Part shown: positions 1-29,791 of the stretch, piece after piece | Numbering within the stretch: the first letter of the stretch is position 1 | Layout: each line of letters opens with the position of its first letter | From: an uncultured Prevotellaceae bacterium | GTDB taxonomy: Bacteria > Bacteroidota > Bacteroidia > Bacteroidales > Bacteroidaceae | Assembly (NCBI GenBank): GCA_946534585.1 | Contig: CAMNCV010000097.1 | Span: forward strand, 1 to 47,079 | Length of the DNA stretch: 47,079 bases | Direction: 5' to 3' | Made by a program: the position numbers and the translations under genes | Notes under the pieces: generated by a model | Told to the model about the DNA's origin: nothing | Seen by the model: the letters and a program-made list of their open reading frames with translations, nothing else | Databases searched by the model: none

Positions 1-126
1 CAGCGTACTGCGAAGCCCCAAGTGGGAGTCGATTACAGAGGACAGAATACGGTCAAATTTGTCCAAAACGAAAAATATTCCGCCAAAAGCACTGATTTTT
101 TCAGATTTTTGTTGTATCTTTGCCAT
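1..126 (-). CDS. IS1380-family-like transposase, N-terminal 42 residues only
   Basis: The frame begins with ATG at 126-124 and stays open for 42 codons to the window edge, starting MAKIQQKSEK and containing FGGIFFVLDKFD and SSVIDSHLGLR. This matches my recollection of the start of Bacteroidetes IS1380-family DDE transposases (MAKIQ-KSEK-FGGIF then a LGLR segment). The catalytic DDE residues lie outside the window. The reading frame is intact here, unlike the right-hand copy. The gene would catalyse cut-and-paste movement of the element. Confidence 0.72.
   Translation of the reverse strand, partial: MAKIQQKSEKISAFGGIFFVLDKFDRILSSVIDSHLGLRSTL
115..122 (+). promoter_or_regulatory. Outward-facing -7 box in left IS end
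   Basis: TATCTTTG fits the Bacteroidetes -7 consensus TAnnTTTG and reads out of the IS into the window, opposite to the transposase it overlaps. Outward promoters at IS1380-family ends are known in Bacteroides. Here the next gene, at 721, also has a closer promoter of its own. Confidence 0.4.
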
Positions 127-293
127 GTCATTGATTATTTTTTGCTTGTCTTGATTTGCAGCACTAAGGTAAGTGAAAAATCTGACATGACAAAATCCTG
201 AGCCGCTCGGCTCTGCCGCTTCGCTCGTCGAAGAACATTTTGTTGCTCAAGAACTTATAAAGAAAGTTAAATTAAAGTGCTGCGGAATATAGG

Positions 294-720
294 GTTAAGA
301 CCAGAGTCTTAGGCAGATCGTTACAATCGGCGGCTGATTACGGCCCGACCGCTTTCCTTGCCTATTGTGAGCAAATAAAACACCTCAGTCGTATCAAGCG
401 CAAACTTATTAATCGGATTACATATCCTCATGCTCGCAGCACAGGGATTACAAATCACAATGAGCGAGAAGCAAAATAGCCACGAGGATGCTTCAAACTA
501 ACAATATGATGGTTCAATTAAACAAAAATGCGAGGGTTACAAGAGAAAAGCGAGCGAAACATTTGCATGAAAACATATTTTTTGCTAACTTTACGGCTGG
601 AAACGTCTTACCGGCACAGCTCTTGCCTTTGCCCCACGCCCTACAGACGACAAACCGGCACAAGGACGAAAGCCACAGACTGGCGAGACGACCGCAGAAA
701 CCTTAAAACCTACCATAATT
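294..720. other. Intergenic region between IS end and LRR gene
   Basis: No credible gene is seen; the short frames here lack family features and overlap the signal peptide start of the next gene. The region holds one isolated copy of the 19-bp palindrome family (323-341, ACAATCGGCGGCTGATTAC) and the promoter of the LRR gene (562-593). The rest shows nothing I can name. Confidence 0.6.
562..593 (+). promoter_or_regulatory. Promoter of the LRR/dockerin gene
   Basis: TTTG at 562-565, then 20 bp, then TAACTTTA at 586-593. Spacing is exactly that of the Bacteroidetes primary promoter; the last base of the -7 box is A rather than G. It would leave a 5' leader of about 120 nt before the ATG at 721. 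Confidence 0.55.
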
Positions 721-3700
721 ATGAAAAAACTACTTTACACGCTATTGCTGCTGTCACTGCAGCTGACCACACAGGCGCAAGATGCCGTGTACCTGATAGG
801 CACCGACGGCACGATGGAGGCCGACCACGCCTCTGCCACTCTACAGAAGGACGAGAACGGTAGCTATACGGGCTATGTCACGTTTCAGAACAATTGGTTT
901 GCCATCACCACGAAGTTAGCCTCCACCTCTGACGGATGGGACGACATAAAGCGCTATCATTTCAGCGCAGATGGCATGGATATCTGCGTAGGCGAGGAGA
1001 AAGGCATCTTCGGGAACTTCAAATACTATCAGGATTTCTTGTTCACAGGTCGACTCTTTTATACATACTGGGTAAAGGTCACGCTGAACAACAATGGCAA
1101 CTATGGCACTATCGCCATATACGAGCAGAAGAATGATGACCCTGAATATGCCGAAGAAGAGCAAAAGACAGAGCTGGCCGACATCGACCTCACCTCCGGC
1201 ACTCACGCCATAGTGAGCGTGCCGGCCGCCGGCATGCTGAAGCAGCGCCTCGCTGCTGCCGCCGAGGCCGGCGACTATGACGTGGTGGACTTCCTTACGG
1301 TAAGGGGCAAGCTGGGCGGTGCAGACCTGGCATACCTGCAGGAGCAGAAAGGCTGGGTGTCGCAGCTGCAATACATAGACCTCTCTGACGTAGAGCTGGT
1401 ATATGACGACGAGCCTTACTACACCTACGTGCGCAACAAGACCAGCGGCACGTTTGGCGGTTTTCAGGTTTATGAATACCACACATATACCCTCTCTGCC
1501 GAGAACGAGGAAGAGGCGGGCGACGGAGGCCGCACCGGCGTAACGTCATACAGCACCATTTTGTATCGCAGGAACGACCTGAGCTATGCCTTCTGCAACA
1601 TGCCGTTGCTAAAGCAGATAAAACTGCCTAAGCAGCTGAAGGGCATCGGCGAGTGCATACTCTCTGGCACACCCGTAGAGAAGGTGGAGTTTCCCACCGC
1701 ACCTGAGTATGTGGGCGACAATGCCTTCTACCTGAGCGACTTTGACTATGAGGGCGGCTGCCGCCTGAAAGGCGTGGCACTGCCGTCCACGGTGACCCGC
1801 CTTGGCAACTACGCCCTGATGGGCATTGGCTTCAGCACAATCGACATAAGCAAGATAACAGAACTGGGAGAGGGATGCCTGCAGGGTACAAACATCTCAA
1901 GCGTAAACCTGAACAGCGGCATAACCTCAATTCCTGCTGGTGCCTTCAGCAACTGCAAGTGGCTGACCTCTGTCACCATACCCGGTACGGTGGAGGTGAT
2001 AGGCAGCAATGCATTCAGCGACTGCGCCATCAAGACGCTGGTAATGCAGGAGGGCATCAGGGTGATAGGCAGCAGAGCATTCAGTGGCAACGACAAACTC
2101 GATGACATTACCGTGCCTAACTCCCTGGAAGAAATCGGAAAGTTCGCCTTCTTCGGTAAACTGGACTATGGCGTAGGTCAGTACCACGTGCCATACATAG
2201 AGAACATGACAGCCGAGGACGGCGTGAAATACATTGGCAAGGTGGCCTACACCTTCACCGGGGGCAGCAGCATAAAGATAAAGGAGGGGACGGTAAGTCT
2301 GGCAGACGGTTTCCTCACCAACCACAATCCCTACGGCAATTCGCACTCGTCAGAGTGGGGAGCCACCGTCACACTGCCCTCAACACTACGCATACTGGGC
2401 AAGGAATGCCTGAAGGACACGCCGGTCAGCAGCATCGAACTGCCCGACAACCTGGAGATAATACGAGAGGGAGCACTGGCCAACAGCAAACTGCGCCGCG
2501 TCACCATACCGAAGAGCGTGGCACTCATTGAGCGTGGGGCATTTGAAGGCTCGTCACTGGTGCGCGTAAACTACAACGCCATTGACGCTGAAGAGAGGTA
2601 TATAGAACGCACCGACGGCTCAAGCGGTTACACAAGAATATTCCCGGAAAGCCTTGTACGCGTCGTGATAGGCGAGGGAGTGAGAAACATACCAGCAAGC
2701 ATGTTTTATGCCTGCGAGAACCTCGCCCGCGTCGAGATGGCAAGCACCGTGGAGACTATCGGTGACCATGCTTTTCAGAATTGCTCGTCGCTTATCCATA
2801 TCGACCTGCCGTCATCACTCAAGCATATCGGCGACAGGGCTCTTGACTGTAGGAATTTACAATATGTGTCGTCCTACATCAGGGAGCCAATGGCTCTGTG
2901 GGTGCTTGGGGCTGAATACATATCAACCAGTGGGTCAGCTGACGTCAATCCCTTTGGCGACATGAGCTACAGTAGCGAGCGCGGCGAGGATGGCAAAGTA
3001 ACCTGGAACTACTACACAAGCAACCAAATTCCGCTGCTGAAGGTGCCCAACGGAACGCTGAGTGCCTACAAGGCCGAGAAGACATGGGCCACGGTATTCT
3101 TACAGACAGAGCAGTTTGACGGAGCGTCTGACGCCAAGGCCGTAAGCCAGACCACGACAATGAGCATGAGCCAGACCGTAACCGAGAGCACTGACCTGAC
3201 AAGCAAGATGCTTGGCAGCGTATATGCCACGCTTGACACGGAGGTGAGCGGCGACGGATACAACGCCTCTGAGGGCTGCCTCATCATCAACTCTACACCA
3301 ACTGTCGACGGCCTCGCCGCAGCCACAGCCAACAACGCCGATGACCTGACGATGAAGAACCAGTTCAACGGCCTCATGGTGAAGGTGCCGGCGGGCAGGG
3401 GCAGCATAACACTCGACTGCCAGACACTGGGCAGCCGCGCCATATACGTAAAGGCGGGGCAGGACGACCCTGAGCAACTGGAGTCCACGAGCCGCAGCCA
3501 ACAAGAGATACCTTATAACGTAAAGAAATCTACGCGCATATTTATATATGGTGCGCCAGTGTCTGGCAGTGCAAGTAGCAAGGCCAGCGCCATGGCCAGC
3601 ACTGACGCTACAGCATACGCCAATGATGATGCCGTGAAGATATACGGCCTCACGGTACGGGTGGACGCGAAGATGCCGCTTGGCGACGTGAATGCCGACA

Positions 3701-3855
3701 GTCACGTCACCATGGCTGATGCCAACATGGTCGTGGGAGCGTTTCTCGGCATGGCAGAGGTTGACATTGACGCTGCCGACGTAAACGGCGACGGCATAAT
3801 AACCATGTCCGATGCCAACGGCATCGTGAACATCTTCCTCAGCAAAGCGCAATAA
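721..3855 (+). CDS. Secreted BspA-like leucine-rich repeat protein with C-terminal dockerin
   Basis: A 1044-residue exported protein, probably acting at or outside the cell surface. A signal peptide is clear (residues 1-20, hydrophobic LLYTLLLLSL, cleavage near AQA/AQD). Residues about 290-720 carry many BspA-type (LRR_5) repeats of the form IPxxVxxIGxxAFxxCxxLxxV, such as LTSVTIPGTVEVIGSNAFSD. Residues about 987-1044 contain two calcium-binding dockerin-like loops, DVNADSHVTMADAN and DVNGDGIITMSDAN, each followed by a short helix. BspA-type LRRs in this group are linked to adhesion and host binding. A dockerin would normally dock on a cohesin, and no cohesin gene is in the window. The region between 720 and 980 is unrecognised. 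It appears monocistronic and is separated from the next gene by a repeat array. Confidence 0.88.
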   Translation: MKKLLYTLLLLSLQLTTQAQDAVYLIGTDGTMEADHASATLQKDENGSYTGYVTFQNNWFAITTKLASTSDGWDDIKRYHFSADGMDICVGEEKGIFGNFKYYQDFLFTGRLFYTYWVKVTLNNNGNYGTIAIYEQKNDDPEYAEEEQKTELADIDLTSGTHAIVSVPAAGMLKQRLAAAAEAGDYDVVDFLTVRGKLGGADLAYLQEQKGWVSQLQYIDLSDVELVYDDEPYYTYVRNKTSGTFGGFQVYEYHTYTLSAENEEEAGDGGRTGVTSYSTILYRRNDLSYAFCNMPLLKQIKLPKQLKGIGECILSGTPVEKVEFPTAPEYVGDNAFYLSDFDYEGGCRLKGVALPSTVTRLGNYALMGIGFSTIDISKITELGEGCLQGTNISSVNLNSGITSIPAGAFSNCKWLTSVTIPGTVEVIGSNAFSDCAIKTLVMQEGIRVIGSRAFSGNDKLDDITVPNSLEEIGKFAFFGKLDYGVGQYHVPYIENMTAEDGVKYIGKVAYTFTGGSSIKIKEGTVSLADGFLTNHNPYGNSHSSEWGATVTLPSTLRILGKECLKDTPVSSIELPDNLEIIREGALANSKLRRVTIPKSVALIERGAFEGSSLVRVNYNAIDAEERYIERTDGSSGYTRIFPESLVRVVIGEGVRNIPASMFYACENLARVEMASTVETIGDHAFQNCSSLIHIDLPSSLKHIGDRALDCRNLQYVSSYIREPMALWVLGAEYISTSGSADVNPFGDMSYSSERGEDGKVTWNYYTSNQIPLLKVPNGTLSAYKAEKTWATVFLQTEQFDGASDAKAVSQTTTMSMSQTVTESTDLTSKMLGSVYATLDTEVSGDGYNASEGCLIINSTPTVDGLAAATANNADDLTMKNQFNGLMVKVPAGRGSITLDCQTLGSRAIYVKAGQDDPEQLESTSRSQQEIPYNVKKSTRIFIYGAPVSGSASSKASAMASTDATAYANDDAVKIYGLTVRVDAKMPLGDVNADSHVTMADANMVVGAFLGMAEVDIDAADVNGDGIITMSDANGIVNIFLSKAQ

Positions 3856-3954
3856 CATAGCGTGCGGGGCTACATAATACGAACAGACGAACTGAAAGTC
3901 ACTGACAGCAAGTGACATACACAGACATACAAGGTTATTGGTAAATAGCCCACT

Positions 3955-4039
3955 GCAATCGCTATCCGATTACCAAGTAATATGATAGCTATTACATCCT
4001 AATCAGCATCTGATTACAACGTAATCGGGTGCTGATTAC
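3955..4039. repeat. 22-bp-period palindrome array A (four units)
   Basis: Four imperfect 19-bp palindromes start at 3955, 3977, 3999 and 4021, separated by the 3-bp spacers CAA, ATC and AAC: GCAATCGCTATCCGATTAC, GTAATATGATAGCTATTAC, CTAATCAGCATCTGATTAC and GTAATCGGGTGCTGATTAC. In unit 3 both arms changed together (AATCAG and CTGATT), which keeps the symmetry. It lies between two co-directional genes. Function unknown. Confidence 0.85.
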
Positions 4040-4074
4040 GCATATAAGTATAACACTCTCTGAAACAGCCTATT

Positions 4075-7000
4075 ATGAATAGCATGGAAATGATAACAGG
4101 CGAACGCCTTTTCGATGACCTGCGACAAGCAGTAAAAACCGCTAACGAGTCAACGGCTACCGCCTACCGACAGCTGCGACGCATCTTCATACGCTGCATC
4201 GACGAGCGCACTAACCGACCGGGACTGCGCTTCGGCGGCACGTTTGCCAAGACCGAATACCTGCTGAAGCACCATAAGGCCGACACGGCACTCATCATCA
4301 GCGTCAACACCGCACGCATAAGGATGCGCCAGAATGTCACGGCGCACACCGCCGTGCTACACTCTGACTTCATGCACGATATGAAGGCCGTATGTCAGTT
4401 CATAGCGTTGGTATATTCCATCGACACTCCTTCCGACCTGACGGCAATCTTTCCTCCTGACGAGAAGAAAGAGGCCAAGCACTTGCTCAGCGAGTATATG
4501 CGCGTAATGGTAAAGAGCGTGGACGATACCTATATATATGCTACTGCTGACAGTGCCACTGCCAGCGAACTGAAAATACACTACTACGGTCGCAATGAAA
4601 ATGCCGCCTACGCAGATTGGGACTGGGCTTATCTGAAAGACATAGTCACAGAGGGCACGCAACTCAACATCATACGACCGCGAGAGGCTGACGGCGTGCT
4701 TTACCCGGAGCTGATAATCGTAGAGCCTGACTATCTGGTTGACATATCGTCTGTAGCTGCCTGTTTCGAGACGTATTCCCACTCGCCGCTAATTCATTTA
4801 CTCAACAGGCTGAAACCTGCTGCGAGTTCTTCGGCTATACTTTTGGGAAACCTTGCCGGACAGTTGCTCGACGAGACCTTACGCCTGCAGCCTGACGACC
4901 GTCCTTATCGCGACAGCGTGGGCGATTTCTTTCGCTCCAACGCACTGACGCTTGCCACTACCGACATGGCTCAGGACTTTCATCAGGAGGCGCAGCGACA
5001 GAAGCAGAACATACGTCGCGCACTTATGGAGACACTACCCGCCGCCCTGCAGGGCAACGGCATCGACAAGTTCGACTCAACGGAAATCATGGTGGAGCCT
5101 TCTTTTTTCTCAGAGATGCTCGGTTTGCAGGGGCGTATGGACTTCTTGCAGATGGATGAGCGCGTACTCATAGAGCAGAAATCGGGCAAGGGCGGCTGGC
5201 CACAGAGCGAGCCCGACACGCCCAGACCGCAGGAGAAGCACTACGTGCAGTTGCTGCTGTATATGCTTTTGCTCAGATACAATAACCGTGAGCAGTATGA
5301 ACGCAACCGCAGAAGTCTGTTCTGCTATCTGTTCTACTCGAAATATGCCAACGGTCTCATCAGCATGGCGTACGCACCACAGCTGGTTTTCGAAGCAGTA
5401 AAAGTGCGCAACGGCATCGCTGCGGCTGAGTTCGGCTACACACGCGATGGTCTCAGCGTACTCAATACGCTCACCGCCGATGCCATCAACGACCTACATT
5501 CTGCCGGAAGATTGTGGGAGGCTTACCAGAAGCCTGAGTTGAATGCCCTCTTACAGCCCATACACGATGCCACGGAACTTGAGCGCACCTACTTCCTGCG
5601 TATGCTAAGGTTTGTGGCTACGGAGCATCTTATGGCTAAAATCGGCAATCAGACGAAGGAGAACTCCGGCTTTGCCGATAAATGGTACAGCACACTTGAT
5701 GACAAACTGCTTGCCGGCAACATCTACTGCGACCTACGACTGCTATCTCCTGCTGCCGATGACCACGGCAACGTGGAGCGCGTGACGCTCGGCTTCGACG
5801 AGCGTCCTGATAACGACATTTCCAACTTCCGTCCCGGCGACATCGTGGTACTGTACCCTTACGATGAGGGTCAGGAGCCTGACGTAAGACGAACGATGGC
5901 GTTTCGCTCCACGATAGAGAAGATAACAGACGACACTATCACGCTATTACTGCGCAGTACGCAGGCTGGTGGCGGCGTGTTCTGGCGCAAAGGAGAGCGG
6001 AAGTGGGCCATCGAACACGATTTCTTTGAGTCCTCTTTCACTTCGCTATACCGCGCTCTGCACGCTTTCTTGCGTGCTCCACAAGAGAGAAGAGACTTGC
6101 TCTTATGCCAGCGCGAGCCTCAGACTGACAGCCATCTGACGCTGACGGGCGACTATGGGGCTTTCAATCCTCTGGCTCTGCGAGTGCGTCAGGCAAAGGA
6201 ACTGTTTCTGATTATCGGCCCACCAGGTACGGGCAAGACCTCGTATGGTATGCTTAACACCGTGCGTGAGGAACTGATGCACGAGGCATCGAGCGTGCTG
6301 CTCATGTCTTACACGAACCGTGCGGTTGACGAGATATGCGGCAAACTCGCCGATGAGGGCATCGACTTCATACGTCTTGGCAACCGTCTGGCCTGCGAGG
6401 AGCGTTTTCGCCCTTATCTGTTAGAGGAGAAGTCGGCTGATTGCAGCAACATACGTGAATTGCGTCAGCTGCTGACAGAGGCACGTGTGATAGTGGGCAC
6501 GACAACATCGCTTAACGCTGCCAGCGCAATCTTCCGCCTGCGCTCTTTCTCCTTGGCTATCATCGACGAGGCTTCGCAGATACTTGAGCCGCATCTCGTA
6601 GGCTTGCTCAGTGCTACTGATGACAAAGGAGACTGCGCCATACGCAAGATTGTGATGATAGGCGACCACAAGCAGCTGCCTGCCGTAGTGCAACAGCGTG
6701 AGGAGGACTCTCGCGTTAACGACCAACTGCTACAATCCATCGGCCTTACCGATTGCCGTCTGTCACTCTTCGAGCGACTGCTCCGCCGCTACTCTGACCG
6801 TCCGGATTGCGTGTATATGCTCACACGCCAGGGACGTATGCACCATGACATAGCACTGTATCCAAGCCGTGCCTTCTATGACGGGCGACTACAGGAAGTG
6901 CCTCTGCCACATCAGACGGAGACGCTCAATGCAGATATCCTCTGCAGCAACGGCATAGAGAAATTGATTGCCACACGACGCACGGCCTTCGTAGATGTGG

Positions 7001-7515
7001 AAAGTCCGGAGAACAGTCCGTCTGACAAGGTCAATCGCTGCGAAGCCGAGGCCATAACAGCCACCATCGTCAGCATATACCGTAAGGAGAAAGAGCATTT
7101 TTCGCCACTGACCACCGTGGGGGTGATAGTGCCTTACCGCAACCAGATTGCCGAGATACGCAAGCATCTGGAGCTGACGGGCATCGAAACACTGCGCAAT
7201 ATCACCATAGATACCGTGGAAAGATACCAAGGTAGCCAACGGGACTATATCCTGTATGGCTTCACCGTACAACGGTATTACCAGCTTGATTTCCTCACAG
7301 CCAACGTGTTTGAAGAGCAAGGACATCTTATTGACCGTAAACTCAACGTAGCAATGACGCGCGCAAGATGTCACTTGTTTATCTTCGGAAATGCCAAACT
7401 GCTCTGTCAAACACCCGTATTCTCTATTCTAATCAAGTATATGCGCACAGAGGAAACATACATCAGCATACCAGTTGCCGATTACGTAAAAGGGAATTTC
7501 TCGCTGCCTGTATAG
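4075..7515 (+). CDS. Dna2-like SF1 helicase fused to a PD-(D/E)XK nuclease domain
   Basis: A 1146-residue cytoplasmic DNA helicase-nuclease. Around residues 345-400 a RecB/Cas4-like nuclease core is visible: GRMDFLQ, then LIEQKSGK, then a helix containing HYVQLLLYMLLL, consistent with the D...ExK metal site and the following QxxxY-type helix. The helicase half has Walker A GPPGTGKT (715-722), Walker B IIDEASQ (D831, E832), motif III GDHKQLP (863-869), motif V VERYQGSQRD (about 1048) and motif VI NVAMTRAR (1091-1098). This order is that of Upf1/Dna2-type SF1B enzymes, which move 5' to 3' and process DNA ends or flaps. The start ATG at 4075 could be replaced by one at 4084. No partner genes adjoin it, so a role in general repair or in defence cannot be separated from sequence alone. 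Confidence 0.85.
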   Translation: MNSMEMITGERLFDDLRQAVKTANESTATAYRQLRRIFIRCIDERTNRPGLRFGGTFAKTEYLLKHHKADTALIISVNTARIRMRQNVTAHTAVLHSDFMHDMKAVCQFIALVYSIDTPSDLTAIFPPDEKKEAKHLLSEYMRVMVKSVDDTYIYATADSATASELKIHYYGRNENAAYADWDWAYLKDIVTEGTQLNIIRPREADGVLYPELIIVEPDYLVDISSVAACFETYSHSPLIHLLNRLKPAASSSAILLGNLAGQLLDETLRLQPDDRPYRDSVGDFFRSNALTLATTDMAQDFHQEAQRQKQNIRRALMETLPAALQGNGIDKFDSTEIMVEPSFFSEMLGLQGRMDFLQMDERVLIEQKSGKGGWPQSEPDTPRPQEKHYVQLLLYMLLLRYNNREQYERNRRSLFCYLFYSKYANGLISMAYAPQLVFEAVKVRNGIAAAEFGYTRDGLSVLNTLTADAINDLHSAGRLWEAYQKPELNALLQPIHDATELERTYFLRMLRFVATEHLMAKIGNQTKENSGFADKWYSTLDDKLLAGNIYCDLRLLSPAADDHGNVERVTLGFDERPDNDISNFRPGDIVVLYPYDEGQEPDVRRTMAFRSTIEKITDDTITLLLRSTQAGGGVFWRKGERKWAIEHDFFESSFTSLYRALHAFLRAPQERRDLLLCQREPQTDSHLTLTGDYGAFNPLALRVRQAKELFLIIGPPGTGKTSYGMLNTVREELMHEASSVLLMSYTNRAVDEICGKLADEGIDFIRLGNRLACEERFRPYLLEEKSADCSNIRELRQLLTEARVIVGTTTSLNAASAIFRLRSFSLAIIDEASQILEPHLVGLLSATDDKGDCAIRKIVMIGDHKQLPAVVQQREEDSRVNDQLLQSIGLTDCRLSLFERLLRRYSDRPDCVYMLTRQGRMHHDIALYPSRAFYDGRLQEVPLPHQTETLNADILCSNGIEKLIATRRTAFVDVESPENSPSDKVNRCEAEAITATIVSIYRKEKEHFSPLTTVGVIVPYRNQIAEIRKHLELTGIETLRNITIDTVERYQGSQRDYILYGFTVQRYYQLDFLTANVFEEQGHLIDRKLNVAMTRARCHLFIFGNAKLLCQTPVFSILIKYMRTEETYISIPVADYVKGNFSLPV

Positions 7516-7557
7516 TTAAATTTAACTAATAAATTTCTGTAAACGAAGAAAAGTGCT

Positions 7558-7565
7558 TACCTTTG
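7558..7565 (+). promoter_or_regulatory. -7 box upstream of the GH3-family gene
   Basis: TACCTTTG fits TAnnTTTG and lies 52 bp before the ATG at 7618. No clear TTTG is seen at the expected -33 distance, so this is a moderate call. It would start the co-directional run that ends at 14048. Confidence 0.45.
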
Positions 7566-7617
7566 CAAGTTGTAAGGGATACTAATAGCCCATAATAACA
7601 GAATAAGAACTCATCCT

Positions 7618-9147
7618 ATGGGAATAACATCTATAGCACGACTGGCGTTTATCAAACGTCAGCACGAATTGGAAAAACACATAACGGTTCCTGCAGAGTT
7701 GCAGCAACGTGTGCTTTCGCATCTCATCAGTAGAGCTGCCGACACCCGATATGGAAGCAACCACGCTTTCTCAAAGATACAATCGTATGAGGATTTCGCC
7801 CGTCTCGTACCTGTCAACACATACGAAGAACTCAAAGCCGACATTGATCTCATGCGCCATGGCGAGCGAGACGTGTTATGGCCCGGACAGGTGAAGTGGT
7901 ATGCAAAGTCTTCCGGCACCACTAATGACAAGTCGAAGTTCATTCCTGTATCAAGCGAAGGGCTCAAACGCATACACTATGCCGGCGGTTCCGACGTGGT
8001 AGCACTGTATCTTAAGAATAATCCCAAAAGCCGATTGTTTGACGGACGTGCACTTATTCTGGGCGGTTCACACGCTCCAAACTATAACGTAGCTAACTCA
8101 CTCGTTGGCGATTTGTCGGCTATTCTGATAGAAAACATCAATCCTGCGGTAAATCTCATACGCGTTCCTGACAAGAATACAGCACTAATCTCTGACTTTG
8201 AGGTAAAGCGTGAGCAGATAGCACGACAGTGTCTGACGAAGAACATCACCAATCTGAGCGGCGTTCCATCGTGGATGATGTCGGTACTGACGCGCGTCAT
8301 GGAGCTTAGCGGCAAGCAACACTTGCAAGAGGTGTGGCCTAATCTTGAGGTATTCTTCCACGGAGGCATTGCCTTCACACCATACCGCAAGCAATATGAG
8401 CATCTTATTACCAAGCCCGACATGCACTATATGGAGACGTACAACGCCTCAGAAGGGTTCTTCGGCATACAGAGCGACCCTCTCGACCCTGCCATGCTCC
8501 TTATGCTTGACTACGATGTATTCTATGAGTTTGCACCGATAGAAGCAATAGATGACAGCGGAAGGCTTACGGATACTACGAAGGTAGTGCCTCTTGAGGG
8601 TGTAGAGATAGGCAAGAACTATGCTATGATTATATCAACCTCTTGCGGATTGTGGCGCTACATGATTGGCGACACGGTGAAGTTCACATCAAAGAAGCCT
8701 TACAAATTCTTCATAACAGGCCGAACCAAGAGTTTTATAAATGCCTTTGGCGAAGAACTTATCGTGGATAATGCCGACCAGGCTCTACACTATGCGTGCG
8801 AGAAAACAGGGGCAGAGGTAAGGGAATACACTGCAGCTCCAGTGCATCGCTCGGAAGGTGTGGTACCGCATCACCAATGGATAGTGGAGTTTTCAAAGCG
8901 TCCTGATGACATAGAGCAGTTTGCTGACATACTCGATGCACGCCTGCAGCAGTTAAACAGCGATTATGAAGCTAAACGCTTCAAGGACATCAACATGGTC
9001 AGACTCGACCTTGTCGTAGCAAACGAAGGCACATTTGAGCAGTGGTTGAAGGGCAAAGGCAAACTGGGAGGACAGAACAAGGTGCCGCGTCTCTCCAACT
9101 CAAGGCAGTATGTGGAGGAGCTTCTCTCGCTCATAGCGAAAGGATAG
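7618..9147 (+). CDS. GH3-family acyl-adenylate/acyl-acid-amido synthetase-like enzyme
   Basis: A 509-residue member of the GH3 (auxin-responsive promoter) family, part of the ANL adenylating superfamily. The ATP-binding loop SSGTTNDKSKF is at residues 98-108. Further family motifs are YNASEGFFG in the middle and GLWRYMIGDTVKF followed by FFITGRTKSFINAFGEEL at the hinge to the C-terminal domain. Plant members conjugate amino acids to acyl acids. The bacterial substrate is not known, and no signal peptide is seen, so it should be cytoplasmic. Length is normal for bacterial members. It opens a run of genes with short gaps (20 bp to the next). Confidence 0.87.
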   Translation: MGITSIARLAFIKRQHELEKHITVPAELQQRVLSHLISRAADTRYGSNHAFSKIQSYEDFARLVPVNTYEELKADIDLMRHGERDVLWPGQVKWYAKSSGTTNDKSKFIPVSSEGLKRIHYAGGSDVVALYLKNNPKSRLFDGRALILGGSHAPNYNVANSLVGDLSAILIENINPAVNLIRVPDKNTALISDFEVKREQIARQCLTKNITNLSGVPSWMMSVLTRVMELSGKQHLQEVWPNLEVFFHGGIAFTPYRKQYEHLITKPDMHYMETYNASEGFFGIQSDPLDPAMLLMLDYDVFYEFAPIEAIDDSGRLTDTTKVVPLEGVEIGKNYAMIISTSCGLWRYMIGDTVKFTSKKPYKFFITGRTKSFINAFGEELIVDNADQALHYACEKTGAEVREYTAAPVHRSEGVVPHHQWIVEFSKRPDDIEQFADILDARLQQLNSDYEAKRFKDINMVRLDLVVANEGTFEQWLKGKGKLGGQNKVPRLSNSRQYVEELLSLIAKG

Positions 9148-9299
9148 TGAAAAACGAATAGTGGAAAGTGAATAATACAAGTTACAAATTGAGTAAGATA
9201 ATAACGACAGGCAATAACATAAAGGATGAAAAGCGAACAGGCAAGACAGTGAGAAACATCGCCAAGGTATTTTTCACTCTTCACTTTTCACTCTTCATA
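9147..9299. repeat. GTGAAAAGTGAAGAG-type simple repeat, two inverted blocks
   Basis: Block 1 (9147-9174) is a degenerate run of GTGAAAAnnGAATAG on the plus strand. Block 2 (9270-9299) is the same motif on the minus strand, reading TTTTTCACTCTTCACTTTTC on plus. The two could pair across about 95 nt. Block 2 lies inside the next gene and encodes FFTLHFSLFI, the hydrophobic core of its signal peptide. Confidence 0.6.
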
Positions 9300-11300
9300 C
9301 TGACAGTCCTACTGTCAGCCTGCGCCCGCATGGGTGCGCCTGACGGAGGCTGGTACGACGAGACCCCGCCGCGGGTCATCGGCGCATCGCCAGAAGACAG
9401 AGAGACAGGCGTAACGCAGAAACACATCTCTATCTACTTCAATGAGTACATAAAGATAGAGAATGTATCAGAAAAGGTTGTAATCTCGCCACCGCAGATG
9501 GAGCAACCAGAGATAAAGACGCAGGGGAAACGCATCACTATCAACCTGATTGACTCGCTCAAGCCCAACACGACCTACACCATAGACTTCTCCGATGCCA
9601 TCAGCGACAATAACGAAGGCAATCCCATGGGCAACTATACTTACAGTTTCTCTACGGGCGAAGATATTGACACCATGGAGTGTTCCGGCTACGTGCTGAA
9701 TGCGGAAGACCTCGAACCAGTGAAGGGAATACTCGTTGGACTTGTGGATACGGCTAAGTCTGACACCGCACAGACGCTGCTCAGGGTATCGCGCACGGAC
9801 TCTCGTGGGCATTTTGTCATACGTGGCATCGCCCCAGGCACATACTGCGTATGCGCAATAGAAGACGTAGATGGCGACTATCGTTTCTCACAACGCAGTG
9901 AGATGATGGCTTTCTCCCACGACAGGATTACGCCATCCCATTTCCTTGACCACCGGCAGGACACGCTGTGGCTTGACGAACTGCACATCAAGGACATAAA
10001 GCGAGTGCCTTATACGCACTTCATGCCCGACAATATCGTGCTGCGAGCATTCATGCATGAACAGACAGACCGTCACTTCATCAAGTTTGACCGCACGGAT
10101 GCCGACCACTTCACGCTATTCTTCTCTGCCCCTATCAGCAGCGATTCCCTAAAGAGGTTTGCCGATTCTGGCATAGCAACGCTACCCTCGCTGAGACTAC
10201 TCGACACCGACGCTACCATTGACCAGCGCGACATCGAGTATTCATCGAAAGGTGATACCATCACCTACTGGCTTCGCGACACGTCTTTAATCAACACTGA
10301 CACGCTCCTTGTGGAGATGGTTACGCTGCAAACGGATACTGCCAACACGCTGCAGATAACCAAAGACACGCTGGAGGTGCTGCCAAAGACCTCTTATGCC
10401 AAGCGAATGAAGAAGTTGAAGGAGGAACAAGATGAATGGAATAAGAACATCGAGAAGAAGCTAAAGGAACGCGAGAAGCAACTTGAGCGTATGCGACGGG
10501 CCGGAGAAGAGGACTTCTCAAGTCTGCCGGAGATTGACACCCTTATGCCACCCGTCAGACTTCTGCCCAAGTATGACATAAAACAGCAAATCTCGCCCGA
10601 TGAGAACATACGCATATCATTCCCCTACCCTATGGCAAGGGTTGACACGTCAGCGGTGCATCTCTACGTAGAGCAAGACTCGATGTGGTTCCGCTCACCA
10701 ATGACACTACACACTACCGACTCGCTGCCTACGCAGCGCAACTGGGAGGTTTACACGGAGTGGATACCAGGAGCAAAATATTCGTTTGAGGTTGACAGTG
10801 CAGCATTTGAGGATATCTACGGTCATGTGGCGGAAGCCTACAAGACCGGTATCGTGGTAGCGAACCTTGAGGACTACGCTTCGCTCTTTGTCAACATCTC
10901 ACCCCTGCCGACTGACAGCAGCGACATAATCGTGCAACTCATAGACAAGGGCGACAAACCCGTTCGCACGGTAGTGGCCAAGGGCGGAACGGCTGAGTTC
11001 TACTACATTGCAGCGGGCAGTTATTATATGCGTGCAATCATCGACCGCAACCACAACGGTGTCTGGGATACAGGTGATTACTACAACGACATACAGCCAG
11101 AGGAGGTATATTACTACAACGAACTTATCGAATGTAAGGCAAAGTGGGACTATACCAAGCAGTGGCAGTTGACATCAAGGCCGTTGTATAAGCAGAAACC
11201 AGAACAGATTACCAAGCAGAAAGGAGAGAAGAAGAAAACCATTAAGAACAGGAATGCTGACCGCGCGAAGGAGTTAGGCGTCACCCCTCCGGAGAAATAA
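9168..11300 (+). CDS. Lipoprotein with N-terminal bacterial Ig-like (Big_5) domain
   Basis: A 710-residue exported lipoprotein. The start is GTG at 9168; no in-frame ATG gives a better signal peptide. The lipobox LLSAC places the lipidated cysteine near residue 51 after the hydrophobic FFTLHFSLFILTVL. Residues about 62-160 form a Big_5-like Ig domain (PPRVIGASPEDRETGV, then ISIYFNEYIKIEN, then LKPNTTYTIDFSDAISD, then YTYSFSTG). A charged, probably coiled-coil stretch lies around 415-450 (KKLKEEQDEWNKNIEKKLKE). The C-terminus is basic. Ig-like proteins of this layout often precede a DUF3108 gene in Bacteroidetes, as here. Precise role unknown. Confidence 0.82.
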   Translation: MNNTSYKLSKIITTGNNIKDEKRTGKTVRNIAKVFFTLHFSLFILTVLLSACARMGAPDGGWYDETPPRVIGASPEDRETGVTQKHISIYFNEYIKIENVSEKVVISPPQMEQPEIKTQGKRITINLIDSLKPNTTYTIDFSDAISDNNEGNPMGNYTYSFSTGEDIDTMECSGYVLNAEDLEPVKGILVGLVDTAKSDTAQTLLRVSRTDSRGHFVIRGIAPGTYCVCAIEDVDGDYRFSQRSEMMAFSHDRITPSHFLDHRQDTLWLDELHIKDIKRVPYTHFMPDNIVLRAFMHEQTDRHFIKFDRTDADHFTLFFSAPISSDSLKRFADSGIATLPSLRLLDTDATIDQRDIEYSSKGDTITYWLRDTSLINTDTLLVEMVTLQTDTANTLQITKDTLEVLPKTSYAKRMKKLKEEQDEWNKNIEKKLKEREKQLERMRRAGEEDFSSLPEIDTLMPPVRLLPKYDIKQQISPDENIRISFPYPMARVDTSAVHLYVEQDSMWFRSPMTLHTTDSLPTQRNWEVYTEWIPGAKYSFEVDSAAFEDIYGHVAEAYKTGIVVANLEDYASLFVNISPLPTDSSDIIVQLIDKGDKPVRTVVAKGGTAEFYYIAAGSYYMRAIIDRNHNGVWDTGDYYNDIQPEEVYYYNELIECKAKWDYTKQWQLTSRPLYKQKPEQITKQKGEKKKTIKNRNADRAKELGVTPPEK

Positions 11301-11335
11301 CGCGCCGGGAAGCAGGAAATCAAAAACCGGAAACT

Positions 11336-12181
11336 ATGATTACACTACATTATGAGAAGATAATCCATGGTGTGACTGACCGCAGAAGAGGCTGTTTACG
11401 CCACGTCTCGTTAATCAGTATGCTGCTTGTGACGCTCTCTCTGCTTTCAGTGCAGCCATCAGCAGCACAGTGTACTTATCATAATCAGGCTTTCTCTGGC
11501 TACGAGGGAATAAACTACAACCTCTACTTCAACTGGCAGTTTGTATGGATTAAGGCCGGAACGGCATCAATGATTACTCAGCCCTTCAACTATAAGGGAA
11601 AGTCGGCTTATCGCACAAGCCTCGTTACGAAGTCTTCAACAAAGGTAGATAGGTACTTCATGATGCGTGATACCATCATGGCTTACTTCTCACCGGAACT
11701 CACTCCTATATATTATCGCAAGGGAGCACGCGAAGGTAAGCGCTACTACGTTGACGAGGTATGGTACACTTACCCCGGAGGCAAATGCAAGACCACGCTG
11801 AAACACCTGCACTCTGACGGCACACGCGATAAGCAGGAGTACACGTACAACACCTGTGTCAGCGACATGATTAACAGTTTTCAGCGCATACGCAACTACA
11901 ATACTGCCAACTGGAAGGTAGGACACGCCGAGAATGTTAGCATAGCAGGAGGTTCGCAGCTTACCAAGGCCCGCATAGTATATAAGGGAAAGAAGCAAGT
12001 AAAGGGCGACAATGGGGTGAAATACCAGTGTCTTGTGCTGTCATATCAGGAACTGGAGAACAAGAAATACAAGGAGATAGTGAAGTTCTTCGTTACCGAC
12101 GACAAGCGCCACATACCCGTAAGGCTCGACCTTAATCTAAGGTTTGGCTCAGCAAAAGCCTTCCTCTGTTCGATAAAGTAA
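11336..12181 (+). CDS. DUF3108-domain exported protein
   Basis: A 281-residue protein with a late signal peptide: a basic N-terminus, then the hydrophobic VSLISMLLVTLSLLSV, then cleavage near SAAQC. The mature part has DUF3108 features: YNLYFNWQFVWIKAGTASM near the start, YRTSLVTKSSTKVDRYFMMRDTIMAYF, and a C-terminal IPVRLDLNLRFGSAKAFL strand. DUF3108 is an envelope domain with a beta-barrel-like fold of unknown function. The next gene starts 21 bp downstream and the preceding gene ends 35 bp upstream, so co-transcription with both is likely. Confidence 0.82.
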   Translation: MITLHYEKIIHGVTDRRRGCLRHVSLISMLLVTLSLLSVQPSAAQCTYHNQAFSGYEGINYNLYFNWQFVWIKAGTASMITQPFNYKGKSAYRTSLVTKSSTKVDRYFMMRDTIMAYFSPELTPIYYRKGAREGKRYYVDEVWYTYPGGKCKTTLKHLHSDGTRDKQEYTYNTCVSDMINSFQRIRNYNTANWKVGHAENVSIAGGSQLTKARIVYKGKKQVKGDNGVKYQCLVLSYQELENKKYKEIVKFFVTDDKRHIPVRLDLNLRFGSAKAFLCSIK

Positions 12182-12202
12182 TCACTATACCTATACGCCC
12201 GA

Positions 12203-13225
12203 ATGAAATCTACGAAGACCATACTGCCACTTATGCACATGATTGTTGATGCATTGTGTATCTGCTGCCTATGTATGCTATCAGAGCGCTATGGTGGTTC
12301 CGGCAACATACTTGGTCTTTACTTTGCATATAACGTCATGGCTTTTCTGACACAGCCACTCACTGGCTGGCTGGCAGACAACTGCCGCGCGGAGAAGTTT
12401 GCACTGCTACACTGCGTATTGCTCACCGCCGTGGTCATAATACTGGCGTGGTCAGGGTTCTGCAACCCACCTATGGATTCCCAAGGCACTATGATGTATG
12501 CCGTAATCGCTCTGCTCGGGCTGGGCAATTCCACCTTCCACGTATGGGCTGGGCGTCTTACGTCACTGCTGACCTGCAACGACATACGATGGCTCGGCGT
12601 ATTCGTATCCACCGGGGCGGTAGGGTTATCGCTCGGTTCGGTGCTCGCTTCCTGGGCTCTTGCATGGATATTGACAATCAGCATCTGCTGGCTTACGCTG
12701 ATATATCTGCGCAGTGAGGATATGAACAAACCGCTCTTTGCCACTGGCGAACCGCTGCATCATGCCATGCGGCGCACTCTCAACGGCGACATCTACACGC
12801 GTATTGACATCTCTGTGGCATTCTCCTGCATTATGGTGATGGCGCTGATGGCCATCGTAATGGTGCGCTCTCATGCTGGTTCTACGCTCAACGGCCAGTT
12901 GCCCCACTCATCAATGATGATACTGGCAGCAGGTATGGTCACCATGGCTGGCAAGATAGCCGGCGGATGGATAGCACAGAGGATAGGACTGGCCACCACT
13001 TTCCTGACGGCAGCCATAGTTACTGCCCTGTGTGCGGCATTGGCAAGCGAAGGAGCGTTTGTGATATTGCTCGGCTTGTTCGCTGTAAACTGCACCATGC
13101 CGCTGACGCTTTACATGATAAACGTAGTGATGCGCGACCGTGAGGGGTTAGCCTTCGGACTGCTTGCAGCCTCGCTCATGCCTACCTACATAGCCATGAT
13201 GATAAGTCAAACTATTTTGGAATAA
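12203..13225 (+). CDS. MFS-like multi-spanning membrane transporter
   Basis: A 340-residue inner-membrane protein with about ten to eleven hydrophobic helices. The loop GWLADNCRAEKFALL after the second helix is the MFS motif-A position (G-x-x-x-D-x-x-x-R/K), and a second half begins with the cytoplasmic segment around TGEPLHHAMRRTLNGD. It is shorter than a typical 12-helix MFS protein of about 400 residues, so it may have lost a helix pair or belong to a shortened branch. Substrate is not predictable. It lies in the GH3 to small-membrane-protein run and is followed after 6 bp by the next gene. Confidence 0.65.
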   Translation: MKSTKTILPLMHMIVDALCICCLCMLSERYGGSGNILGLYFAYNVMAFLTQPLTGWLADNCRAEKFALLHCVLLTAVVIILAWSGFCNPPMDSQGTMMYAVIALLGLGNSTFHVWAGRLTSLLTCNDIRWLGVFVSTGAVGLSLGSVLASWALAWILTISICWLTLIYLRSEDMNKPLFATGEPLHHAMRRTLNGDIYTRIDISVAFSCIMVMALMAIVMVRSHAGSTLNGQLPHSSMMILAAGMVTMAGKIAGGWIAQRIGLATTFLTAAIVTALCAALASEGAFVILLGLFAVNCTMPLTLYMINVVMRDREGLAFGLLAASLMPTYIAMMISQTILE

Positions 13226-13231
13226 CCGCCT

Positions 13232-13558
13232 ATGTCACTGCTCCTGCCACTCATACTGACCATTGCCATAGAGGCTTGTGTGCTGTACGCTCTGCGCGAA
13301 CGACGCAAACAAGTGTATTGGGCATTGGTGGTGATGAACGTCATGACGAACGTTCCGCTCAACCTTTACGTGCAATACGTCAGTTATTCGCTCACGGTGA
13401 TAGTCATAGGCGAGTTACTTGTCATTCTGACCGAAGCACTATGCTACCGAATGGTGACACGCAACTGGCGCCAATCACTGACATACAGCGCGCTATGTAA
13501 TGCCGTAAGCTACTTCATGGGAGCACTTATGCTGAACTTATATCAATTACTAACATAA
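13232..13558 (+). CDS. Small membrane protein, unknown function (108 aa)
   Basis: I do not recognise a family. It has three or four hydrophobic helices: LLLPLILTIAIEACVLYAL, then VYWALVVMNVMTNVPLNLYV, then LTVIVIGELLVILTEAL, and a C-terminal helix ending in LMLNLYQLLT. A basic cluster RERRKQ follows helix 1. The start 6 bp after the MFS-like gene suggests translational coupling, so it may act with that transporter. Confidence 0.7.
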   Translation: MSLLLPLILTIAIEACVLYALRERRKQVYWALVVMNVMTNVPLNLYVQYVSYSLTVIVIGELLVILTEALCYRMVTRNWRQSLTYSALCNAVSYFMGALMLNLYQLLT

Positions 13559-13572
13559 TAACAATTTACACT

Positions 13573-13914
13573 ATGCAGTTACTTGACATAATTGCTCCAT
13601 CACGTCTTGAGATGATTGAGCAGAGCGCCAGACGCAATCAGCGGTTTGATTTTGAAGACTCACCAGAGTACAAGGAAATGGTGCGCCGCGCCACCGACTC
13701 CCTGCAACACATACAGGACTCTATCAGGTCGGCTGTCACTGACAGCGCTCAGGCCATCACCGACACCGTGCAGGCGGCTGTTCCCATTTCCGGCAACTAC
13801 GGCGACGGCACCGGCATGACCCTGCTCACCATCGTTGGCTCGCTCGCAGCCTTGGCTGCGTGTACCTATCTCATTGTAAAATCACGTAAAACTACTACAC
13901 AATGCAACTGTTAG
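13573..13914 (+). CDS. Small membrane-anchored protein with MQLLDI N-terminus (113 aa)
   Basis: Unrecognised. The N-terminus MQLLDIIAP is followed by a polar, probably helical stretch (about residues 12-70) and a C-terminal membrane helix, MTLLTIVGSLAALAACTYLIV, with basic residues after it. The layout is that of a tail-anchored inner-membrane protein with its soluble part in the cytoplasm. Its last 13 bases overlap the next small gene, which begins with nearly the same peptide, MQLLDIVEP. Confidence 0.68.
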   Translation: MQLLDIIAPSRLEMIEQSARRNQRFDFEDSPEYKEMVRRATDSLQHIQDSIRSAVTDSAQAITDTVQAAVPISGNYGDGTGMTLLTIVGSLAALAACTYLIVKSRKTTTQCNC

Positions 13915-14048
13915 ACATTGTAGAACCAGGACTGGAGACCATCTGCCAGGATGATTGTGTAACCGCCGTAATAGCGGCAGCCATCGCGCTCTGCGCACTC
14001 GTAGCGGCTGTATTTTTCTATCGTAATCGTATGAAGAAAAGTGTTTGA
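13902..14048 (+). CDS. 48-aa membrane micro-protein, paralogous N-terminus to the gene before
   Basis: ATG at 13902 opens a 48-codon frame ending with TGA at 14046-14048. It starts MQLLDIVEPGLETI, close to MQLLDIIAPSRLEMI of the preceding gene, then has one membrane helix (AVIAAAIALCALVAAVFFY) and a basic tail RNRMKKSV. The 13-bp overlap and shared first residues suggest a real, translationally coupled gene made by partial duplication. Function unknown. Confidence 0.6.
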   Translation: MQLLDIVEPGLETICQDDCVTAVIAAAIALCALVAAVFFYRNRMKKSV

Positions 14049-14085
14049 TTATCGCCTTGTCATACAACAAGATACAGTGACCACC

Positions 14086-14170
14086 GTAATCGCTATGCTT
14101 TTACACTGTAATTGCATAGCGATTACGGTGTAATATGATAGCGATTACAGAGTAAAAGCATAGCAATTAC
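14086..14170. repeat. 22-bp-period palindrome array B (four units)
   Basis: Units start at 14086, 14108, 14130 and 14152 with spacers ACT, GGT and AGA: GTAATCGCTATGCTTTTAC, GTAATTGCATAGCGATTAC, GTAATATGATAGCGATTAC and GTAAAAGCATAGCAATTAC. Unit 4 is the reverse complement of unit 1 at 18 of 19 positions, so the array could also fold as one long stem. It lies between the micro-protein gene and the S41 protease promoter. Confidence 0.85.
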
Positions 14171-14292
14171 AACGCAGGGGTTACGCTTTGTTTTTTTAAA
14201 GGCCAGAAGCCTTACATCAAGAAAAATTTGGAAAAATGATGAAATAATGCAAAATAAAAAACCAAAACGGTGGTAATGTCAGGGAAAATGAT

Positions 14293-14300
14293 TACTTTTG
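14293..14300 (+). promoter_or_regulatory. -7 box of the S41 protease gene
   Basis: TACTTTTG matches TAnnTTTG and lies 27 bp before the ATG at 14328. The AT-rich run just upstream shows no convincing TTTG at the expected distance. Confidence 0.5.
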
Positions 14301-14327
14301 CATAACGAGAAGACATAAACACTGAAT

Positions 14328-16094: not shown

Positions 16095-16120
16095 CAAATA
16101 ATCCAAAAGGAGAACTAAAG

Positions 16121-16179
16121 GTGGGTTCTATTCATAACCACCGTAATGTTAAGGTGGGTTGACGTTTAATCGAACCCGC
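16121..16179. repeat. Short relative of the MITE-like repeat
   Basis: The element begins GTGGGTTCTATT and ends AATCGAACCCGC, a 12-bp inverted pair with two mismatches. Its left 33 bp match the left end of the 27716-27905 element, including ACCACCGTAAT. It looks like an internally deleted copy. Confidence 0.6.
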
Positions 16180-16190
16180 TTAAAAGAATA

Positions 16191-16247
16191 TATAAACAAA
16201 CAACTGCGATACCACATGAACGATGGTATCGCAGCTGTTTGTTTATA
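16191..16247. terminator. Bidirectional terminator between S41 protease and lipoprotein genes
   Basis: A 24-bp inverted repeat (16191-16214 with 16224-16247, one mismatch) around a 9-base loop. The stem has a GC-rich core (CTGCGATACCA) and AT-rich ends that supply T tracts on both strands. It sits between two convergent genes, 9 bp from the lipoprotein stop. Confidence 0.82.
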
Positions 16248-16255
16248 TAGATAAG

Positions 16256-17083
16256 TTATGGTTTTATGGCAATCGCCGTGTAGGTCTTGTTCAGTGGGAA
16301 AGAGCCACTGACGGTATAGACACGGTTGCTGGAAGAGTTGTAATAGCGCACGGTGGCTGTTTCGCTGGCTTCGTTTGAGAATACGTAGAAGGTATCACCC
16401 AAATGTCCTATACCACGACATTCTTCGCCTACAAACACCGCAACAATATCATCATCACTCTTATTAAACAGGCCTTCAACTGCTTCATCTACAAGAAACG
16501 TTGCAGCGTTAGCATACTTGGTACTGCCGCTCAGCATATCAATAGTAAAGTCAGTGTCTGTGCCAAGGATATACTCATTGATGAAATGCCTGTCGGATTG
16601 CGCAAGAGTGAATATCTGATGCAATGCACCACTATAGTAACTGATGCGGAATTCTGATGCTTCTTCCGAGACAGAGCCTCGCACGTTCAACACGAAATAC
16701 ACATCGCCATCGTCAGTCAACTGTCTGGGTGACACGGTGCGGCACTCACCATCTACAAACACCGCTATGACATCATCATCGGTAGAGAATGGCACGAGTT
16801 CCTGCTGCAGTTTCAGCATCATCACAGTGAAACTCTCATAATCAGAGAGGTCAACGATTGTCCATGATGGTTTCTCATCACTCGCTGTCATTGAGGTCTG
16901 CCACAAGGTTTGCCAATCAGGCGCCTTACTGACGTTAGTGTACGATGTAGCGTACGCAGAACCCTCTGCGAGCTTTTCGCCAGTCTGCTCCGAAGAGTCA
17001 GACGAACAACCTGCAATCATCAACAACACTGGCAACATTACCGCATATAGCGGAATAAAGACTTTACTCAAAATCTTATACAT
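16256..17083 (-). CDS. Lipoprotein with two copies of an adhesin-type AFVGEECRG module (275 aa)
   Basis: The N-terminus MYKILSKVFIPLYAVMLPVLLMIAGCSSD is a lipoprotein signal with lipobox MIAGC. Two related segments follow: DDDVIAVFVDGECRTV (about residues 98-113) and DDDIVAVFVGEECRGIG (about 206-222), each followed by beta strands ending in a YY-S-x-x-x-x-x-YT pattern. The same module, with the core DRLGAFDGMGRCLGVGD, is near the C-terminus of the giant protein encoded 26 bp upstream. This module is common in large secreted Bacteroidales proteins. The two genes are probably one operon, with the lipoprotein at the cell surface as an accessory or partner. Function is not established. Confidence 0.8.
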   Translation of the reverse strand: MYKILSKVFIPLYAVMLPVLLMIAGCSSDSSEQTGEKLAEGSAYATSYTNVSKAPDWQTLWQTSMTASDEKPSWTIVDLSDYESFTVMMLKLQQELVPFSTDDDVIAVFVDGECRTVSPRQLTDDGDVYFVLNVRGSVSEEASEFRISYYSGALHQIFTLAQSDRHFINEYILGTDTDFTIDMLSGSTKYANAATFLVDEAVEGLFNKSDDDIVAVFVGEECRGIGHLGDTFYVFSNEASETATVRYYNSSSNRVYTVSGSFPLNKTYTAIAIKP

Positions 17084-17109
17084 TATCTATTTACTATAAT
17101 ATATGTTAA

Positions 17110-27327: not shown

Positions 27328-27379
27328 TATTATTATATATAATATAAATAGGTTTTTATGTTTTTCGTGATATTCTCTT

Positions 27380-27427: not shown

Positions 27428-27456
27428 TTACATTTGTTTCTTACCAAAAGTAAATG

Positions 27457-27490: not shown

Positions 27491-27529
27491 TTTCCGTGTT
27501 AATTTTTCTTAACCCAACGCATTTCCTTC

Positions 27530-29787: not shown

Positions 29788-29791
29788 GGCC

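Follow-up and report, generated by a model that had tools for sequence, protein, structure and literature searches.

An uncultured Prevotellaceae bacterium carries a class of intergenic repeat arrays in which 19-bp units with inverted half-sites follow one another at exactly 22 bp, and these arrays are evenly spaced along the genome and stand in rotational register with an ~11-bp AA/TT rhythm that runs through the neighboring genes. The even spacing and the register together make the arrays likely anchor points that help to fold the chromosome. On this sequence-based reading, to which we assign a probability of roughly one half, the arrays would be anchor sites of helically phased chromosome folding and would likely seat a predicted dimeric nucleoid protein. 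The window analyzed here is the whole stretch of 47,079 nucleotides (contig CAMNCV010000097.1); G000 denotes the genome of the window, the other G-numbers denote other genomes, and the L-numbers denote loci that were read.

The arrays of the window

The window contains the following features, none of which is assigned to a strand:

3955..4039, array 1, four units of 19 bp repeated at 22 bp
14086..14170, array 2, four units, 5' of an S41 peptidase gene
27530..27614, array 3, four units, between the divergently oriented genes of a 3405-aa protein and argS
1..47079, a weak AA/TT rhythm at 10.99 bp; no other peak in the 8.5-14 bp range of the window's own spectrum is as tall (1.9 times the median)

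The three arrays, each consisting of four 19-bp units with 3-bp spacers at an exact 22-bp period, were found where an earlier note on this DNA had placed them, and 12 of the 12 units have AA at positions 3-4 and end in C, the two features that it had called invariant. Its description of all twelve units as fitting one consensus is loose, as GTAATCGCTATGCGATTAC is matched at just 12 to 17 of 19 positions. Array 1 is located 99 bp 3' of a gene for a dockerin/BspA-type LRR protein and 35 bp 5' of a Dna2-like helicase-nuclease gene, while the full 85 bp of array 2 doubles as an inverted repeat whose 30-bp arms are 90% complementary. The genes flanking the three arrays have no relation to one another. 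The 3405-aa open frame (17110-27327) has a carboxypeptidase-regulatory-like domain as its sole Pfam match. No curated Rfam family matched the window at its gathering score (0 matches), and no counterpart of the arrays was found in the open-licence literature. The observation of a new-looking repeat class is confirmed, and the class is larger than the earlier note saw.

A model built from the three arrays gave at least 207 matches in G000 at E up to 1, both strands counted. Of 674 candidates 150 were scored, 98 distinct sites were listed and 89 were fetched (L013, a duplicate of L001, was left out); chained at 22 bp, these 89 arrays comprised 49 with four units, 35 with five and 5 with six. To avoid the detection bias of the model search, we added a direct scan of 774,795 bp of G000 contigs, which yielded 49 arrays (22 with four units, 26 with five and one with six), and all 49 were intergenic according to gene calls made with our own hexamer script. 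The claim that no array extends to a fifth unit stands for the three arrays of the window, where the neighboring registers fail to qualify, but not genome-wide, since five or six units were counted in 40 of the 89 model-fetched and 27 of the 49 direct-scan arrays.

The chain detection of arrays presumes 22 bp, and the detection thresholds in the scans of G000, G198, G010, G061 and G103 were our own choice; separate period-free checks were run. Over 421,794 bp of G000, 22 four- or five-unit chains were found versus none in Markov sequence, and the distances between strong matches up to 140 bp were all multiples of 22. Lone units stayed at background (18 single-unit matches versus 14 in Markov sequence), triples were absent, and both doubles belonged to one five-unit array with a weak middle. 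Because singles are near background and triples do not occur, the architecture in G000 is fixed at 22 bp and at least four units. A consensus-free test, which asks for AA-N11-TT in four units at 15 or more of 16 positions, returned 84 matches at period 22 in the 774,795 bp of G000 and 0 to 4 at each period of 18-21 and 23-26. The same test at period 22 gave 115 matches in G198, 25 in G010, 21 in G061 and 8 in G103, again with 0-4 at each of the other periods from 18 to 26, so that 22 is the one period with clear enrichment in all five scanned genomes. Unit number and period varying freely elsewhere, which the earlier note had named as counting against the class, did not occur; the number is mostly 4 or 5.

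Across G000 units, AA (3-4) and TT (16-17) are conserved at 98-99%; the units are poor in AA, and G1 and C19 are retained at 84%. The half-sites fall into few classes, namely GTAA then TCGC, TCAG, AAGC or TAGC, and fewer others. The earlier note had proposed that symmetry is under selection. In the test of arm covariation the two halves of a unit matched less than chance: identical half-site cores made up 8.5% of 401 units in G000 versus 18.5% in shuffles (0 of 500 as low) and 8.5% of 236 units in G198 versus 20.8% (0 of 1000 as low; arrays of 3, 6 or 10 units left out). Selection for symmetry is therefore unsupported. Meanwhile, left halves 22 and 44 bp apart in G000 are more alike than expected.

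The layout in other species

Judged by their sequences, other species of the genus keep the 22-bp, about-four-unit layout while the sequence of the unit changes. A second species, G198, has 62 arrays in 400 kb, of which 59 contain exactly four units (consensus GTAAAAGCAATGCTTTTAC). A third, G061, has 19 arrays in 400 kb, 18 of them with four units (consensus GCAAATTCGCCGAATTTGC), and 8 of the 15 arrays in G010 are four-unit arrays (consensus GTAAAAGATCATCTTTTAC). G103 is array-poor, with 4 array-like chains in 400 kb. Extrapolated totals are ~180 arrays in G000 (from 49 in 774,795 bp) and ~420 in G198 (from 62 in 400 kb). The 22-bp period also occurs in the 20 loci read from G001, G012, G039, G021, G076 and G046. 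Base preferences beyond AA/TT differ among species, which fits a protein with changing specificity. The model searches found arrays in 10 of 100 genomes in the first search and 18 of 199 in the second. These prevalences include false positives (the G109 and G106 loci are other repeats) and are lower bounds, because G061, which we had chosen as a 'no-array' control since model R2 listed no match there, carries its 19 arrays.

Among 80 named helicase loci (1.43 Mb), the consensus-free test flagged L211, L214 and L216, of which L216 was rejected as another AT-rich repeat. Tandem Repeats Finder reported 13 repeats at period 22 in the helicase loci and 0, 0, 2 and 0 at periods 19, 20, 23 and 25; multiples of three were common too, with 13 at period 18. 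In L211, from another Prevotella, the array (9659-9790) lies ~100 bp 5' of an orthologue of the helicase (55% identical), possibly by chance. L217, from an uncultured Prevotella, contains two four-unit 22-bp arrays of an ACTAC...GTAGT palindrome, which are directly adjoined by a second 22-bp-period repeat (around GCGATTTGCCGCAAAC; 17114-17183 and 1500-1680). L093 and L096 of G001 have arrays with common flanks and a downstream terminator-like hairpin, a duplicated segment that includes the array. In G291, G141 and G230 (L141, L146 and L147; each genome has two array matches, at one place) the array adjoins a common AAA-type ATPase gene, and in G132, of another genus, the array (L152:1479-1566) is near a transposase-like gene, with an HU-like gene ~1 kb off, according to our own reading of the translations. 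The neighbors of these solitary arrays suggest no DNA-binding regulator, as an auto-regulated gene beside the array would be.

Spacing and genomic position

The intervals between arrays in G000 (n = 37, mean 15.3 kb) have a coefficient of variation (CV) of 0.39 versus 0.90 for random intergenic sites, a regularity reached in 0 of 5000 simulations in which sites were drawn from intergenic regions of at least 100 bp. The minimum distance of 6,359 bp was likewise reached in 0 of 5000 random sets. The regularity was replicated, the CV being 0.39 for the first 18 intervals and 0.23 for the 19 intervals of the later-fetched contigs. Minimum distances in G010 (13.9 kb) and G061 (8.2 kb) were each reached in 0 of 5000 random sets, and the CVs were 0.56 (62 of 5000) and 0.79 (921 of 5000), respectively. 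In G198, with one array per 6.5 kb, the spacing is near random (376 of 5000 random sets).

The gaps that hold the 49 G000 arrays are codirectional in 34 cases, divergent in 7 and convergent in 8. Arrays in codirectional gaps are often closer to the stop than to the start codon (24 of 35 in G198, 9 of 15 in G000), and in G000 the median distance is 34 bp to flanking stop codons versus 150 bp to start codons (23 ends each). In comparisons of six species pairs, 6 gene ends had an array in both species versus ~4 expected. That array positions are not conserved between species argues against gene-specific regulation.

Register of the arrays with a 10.98-bp rhythm

The AA/TT/TA-minus-GC/CG signal of G000 peaks at 10.988 bp (3.0 times the median), and the remark in the earlier note that 22 bp is close to two helical turns is borne out by the genome's own period, as 22/10.98 = 2.00. 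We took the period of 10.98 bp from G198 and then tested it in G000, where the 89 arrays are in register with their flanks at 350-2500 bp (R = 0.58, phase 2.7 bp, Rayleigh p ~1e-13; the Rayleigh p-values assume independent arrays). Among 16 periods tried, the register peaks solely at 10.98 (0.34 at 10.94 and at most 0.16 at the other 14), and jittered controls gave R of at most 0.246 in 200. The phase is likewise 2.7 bp when coding sequence alone is used (R = 0.53 and p 1.1e-6 for 49 arrays), against ~3 bp predicted from the AA/TT of the array itself. With distance from the array, R declines from 0.36-0.47 within 1.65 kb to 0.25 at 1.65-2.65 kb, 0.18 at 2.65-3.65 kb and 0.07 beyond; the register with coding DNA thus reaches to ~3 kb and has faded by ~3.6 kb. 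Phase-blind power at 10.985 bp is 3.0-3.4 within 3 kb of an array and 1.5 beyond 8 kb, with ~1.3 at control periods. Since register and power both fall off with distance, the arrays mark the centers of phased domains of ~5-7 kb in G000. Taken singly, the three arrays of the window are noisy, with phases of 5.7, 0.2 and 1.8 bp versus the ~3 bp predicted.

In G198 the spectrum peaks at 10.983 bp (23.7 times the median), in G061 at 10.988 bp (4.0) and in G010 at 11.008 bp (2.4); the array-poor G103 has no 10.98-bp peak, its top being 10.79 bp at 1.28 times the median. Beside G198 arrays, TT stays in the 22-bp register beyond 1 kb, being the top-ranked of 22 phases in all eight 132-bp bins. At lags of 16-32 kb the autocorrelation of the 10.98-bp wave of the 400 kb is still ~10 times the median. 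AA and TT share one phase, from which GC is displaced by 5.46 bp, or half a turn (coherence 0.87). The wave has 15.5 times the power of noise in coding DNA, and coding sequence 350-3000 bp off keeps register with the arrays (R = 0.755, n = 62, p ~5e-16) at a phase of 3.05 bp, where ~3 was predicted. Furthermore, G198 arrays less than 6 kb apart share a 21.97-bp lattice (R = 0.686, n = 46, null 95% 0.31; the 10-unit array left out). Farther out, R drops to 0.495 at 6-12 kb and loses significance at 12-20 kb (0.228 versus a null of 0.247), but is significant again at 20-40 kb (0.29).

Measured from coding DNA, register is present in G000, G198 and G061, and not in G010. In G061, R is 0.61 at the preset 10.98 bp (n = 19, p 9e-4; no longer significant, p 0.2, when 80 periods are allowed for). 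G010 has arrays and a weak wave, yet no register (R = 0.17, n = 15). Periodicity is stronger near arrays in G000 and G198, with almost no power gradient around those of G061 and no rise near those of G010 (1.8 near, 2.7 far). Smaller samples were off phase (G012, n = 6, 6.8 bp; G039, n = 3, 7.9 bp) or without register (G001, n = 6), and 29 arrays of other species pooled gave R = 0.30 (p 0.07). Eleven loci of mixed species do show register (R = 0.63, p 0.013), and so does L211 (n = 3, R = 0.99). A GC-rich (57%) Prevotella contig, L244:1-10064, shows a strong wave of 10.96 bp, to which GC dinucleotides contribute most, and despite this wave no AA/TT array was found within its 10 kb.

Discussion

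We favor chromosome geometry over gene regulation or mobility because the arrays combine even spacing with turnover of position, keep 22 bp fixed while their sequence changes, and stand in rotational register with neighboring codons. We infer protein binding by a dimer with 11 bp per subunit, spreading from the array and folding of the chromosome. A predicted dimeric nucleoid protein would seat one dimer per 22 bp on the array, which would offer it eight or more half-sites, one per helical turn; one dimer per unit on one face of the DNA is a plausible, putative layout. The seated protein would then nucleate helically phased folding of the flanking few kilobases, and the AA/TT and GC bias of the flanks may represent weak sites along which the complex extends. 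In a more elaborate form, which we hold only tentatively, a nucleosome-like rotational code would run across the genes with the arrays as its dedicated nucleation sites. A fast-evolving dimeric protein would bind there as about four dimers (eight turns) every 6 to 18 kb and extend through coding DNA in a single 10.98-bp register, which in G198 would be a lattice over tens of kilobases. For the binding protein, the presence of HU/IHF-fold (8 of 8 genomes), HU-HIG (8 of 8) or H-NS (0 of 8) genes does not discriminate the array-bearing genomes, and no trans factor emerged from HU, HU-HIG and H-NS among these eight genomes. The array-poor and wave-less G103 has the most HU-fold matches of the eight (16 PF00216, 19 HU-HIG).

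The main and nearest rival to the protein anchor, unlikely as we consider it, is that the arrays act as bare DNA: eight helically phased bends in 85 bp would set where a negatively supercoiled loop has its tip, weak matching bends would lie in its arms, and no dedicated protein would take part. A period of 10.98 bp corresponds to DNA underwound by ~4.4% (arithmetic from 10.5 bp), and the bend predicted by a wedge model with provisional parameters is largest at 10.98 bp of the four periods tried. With the same provisional parameters, the predicted bend per 85 bp is 73 degrees in G000 and 92 in G198 versus ~31-39 for shuffled sequence and 42-48 for other intergenic DNA, so that the mean is about twice that of shuffled arrays. 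The avoidance of perfect palindromes would also suit a site where cruciforms would extrude. According to the accessible part of one study, plectonemes are pinned in vitro by a curved insert of 75 bp, the modeled tip being ~73 bp, and sequence-encoded pins of ~75 bp of curved DNA position supercoil tips upstream of promoters (PMC6301789); those pins are not a repeat family, and no long-range register is described for them there. However, the predicted bend (provisional wedge parameters) exceeds the intergenic 95th percentile in just 30 of the 89 G000 arrays and 26 of the 59 G198 arrays, the AA-poor G000 units keep G1 and C19 more strictly than bending needs, and bending alone leaves the species-specific consensus unexplained. 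Preferred sites of DNA gyrase, wrapping DNA right-handed at regular distances, are an improbable explanation. A right-handed wrap goes well with a period longer than 10.5 bp, E. coli BIMEs are gyrase sites, and the arrays are intergenic and often nearer to a stop than to a start codon; but G198 arrays lack a distinct central cleavage motif between units 2 and 3, and turnover of the consensus among congeners would be odd for a conserved enzyme.

We regard it as very improbable that the arrays work as RNA, be it as 3' hairpins, terminators or processing signals, or that they are the operators of a large regulon. Because the half-sites are inverted, the predicted RNA folds greatly exceed dinucleotide shuffles in stability (mean z -5.7, with 87% of 178 strands below -2), and the proximity to stop codons in G000 would suit such a role. 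Against it, the arrays occupy codirectional, divergent and convergent gaps alike, perfect stems within a unit (identical half-sites) are avoided, and it is hard to see what an RNA would gain from the exact helical register, the even spacing and the long-range phase; operators of a regulon are at odds with the unrelated genes flanking the arrays of the window and with positions that differ between species. Least probable of all is a dispersed mobile repeat akin to REP/REPIN or MITE elements, which a transposase would move and whose spacing would stem from target immunity. Many intergenic copies at unconserved positions, a minimum distance of several kilobases in 3 of 4 species and a slight excess of 3-bp direct repeats at array ends (5 of 89 versus 2.0 expected) would agree with it. 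However, the ends of the 89 G000 arrays have no direct repeats of 4 bp or more (0 of 89), the flanks share no end sequence (at most 0.38 bits of information per position), the copies are diverged, and insertion cannot set an array in register with codons 1-3 kb off. Genes for the Y1 transposase (PF01797), present in 11 of 20 genomes, gave no match in 4 of the 8 with model-R1 arrays, namely G012, G021, G039 and G046 (G021 and G039 being incomplete); since they do not track the arrays, RAYT/REPIN was rejected.

Comparison with known repeats also sets the arrays apart. REP, BIME and REPIN elements are short, imperfect intergenic palindromes in many copies, and we know of no fixed 22-bp tandem layout among them. 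Such palindromes in many copies are described in the accessible part of PMC3733652. Their linked RAYT/Y1 transposase does not track the present arrays. The BrickBuilt minisatellite-MITE of Porphyromonas gingivalis resembles the arrays in its Bacteroidales host and its short tandem units, which are 23 nt long (PMC4596501). As far as that source was available, its unit, AGAYCATARTATCCTCTCRTRTG, is unrelated, a single element holds 18 full repeats, and leader and tail segments and terminal inverted repeats are present; the present arrays have none of its ends and, in 89 cases, no flanking direct repeat of at least 4 bp. BrickBuilt and the other P. gingivalis repeats covered there were rejected, as unit, period and ends differ.

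The ~11-bp dinucleotide (A-tract) periodicity of bacterial chromosomes, in both coding and non-coding DNA, is described in the accessible parts of several sources (PMC7537859, PMC4132750, PMC3431218, PMC3940949, PMC1242344). The rhythm seen here belongs to it, as an AA/TT excess at 10-11 bp was found in G000, G198, G061 and G010 and is carried in coding sequence. In the portions available to us, the ~11-bp rhythm is described as widespread and held under selection, with a role still called unclear and 'a binding partner likely' (PMC7537859), a persistent signal of 10.9 bp is given for Mycoplasma hyopneumoniae (PMC3431218), and helically phased AT-tracts are reported in plectoneme loops (PMC4132750). 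In these excerpts the signal is diffuse, with E. coli regions of 'at least a kilobase', whereas here it is accompanied by discrete arrays of mostly 4-6 units, which are in register with the rhythm in 3 of the 4 species tested, are evenly spaced in G000 and mark its local maximum in 2 of the 4 species. Searches of the open-licence literature yielded no account of separate tandem arrays that keep register with the ~11-bp rhythm. A parallel for nucleation followed by extension is HTa of Thermoplasma, an HU-family histone analogue for which the part of the source at hand gives modal fragments of ~50 and 85 bp, a GpC preference and a WW/SS pattern (PMC6877293). HTa is archaeal and, in that part, has no dedicated repeat-array nucleator, whereas the protein here is predicted only.

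If the anchor reading is true, the arrays would be discrete landmarks of the phase of the ~11-bp rhythm, giving its anchor place, its rotational setting and its reach, and the role of this rhythm would become testable. Gene sequence in some bacteria would then be shaped by a DNA geometry that is anchored kilobases off.
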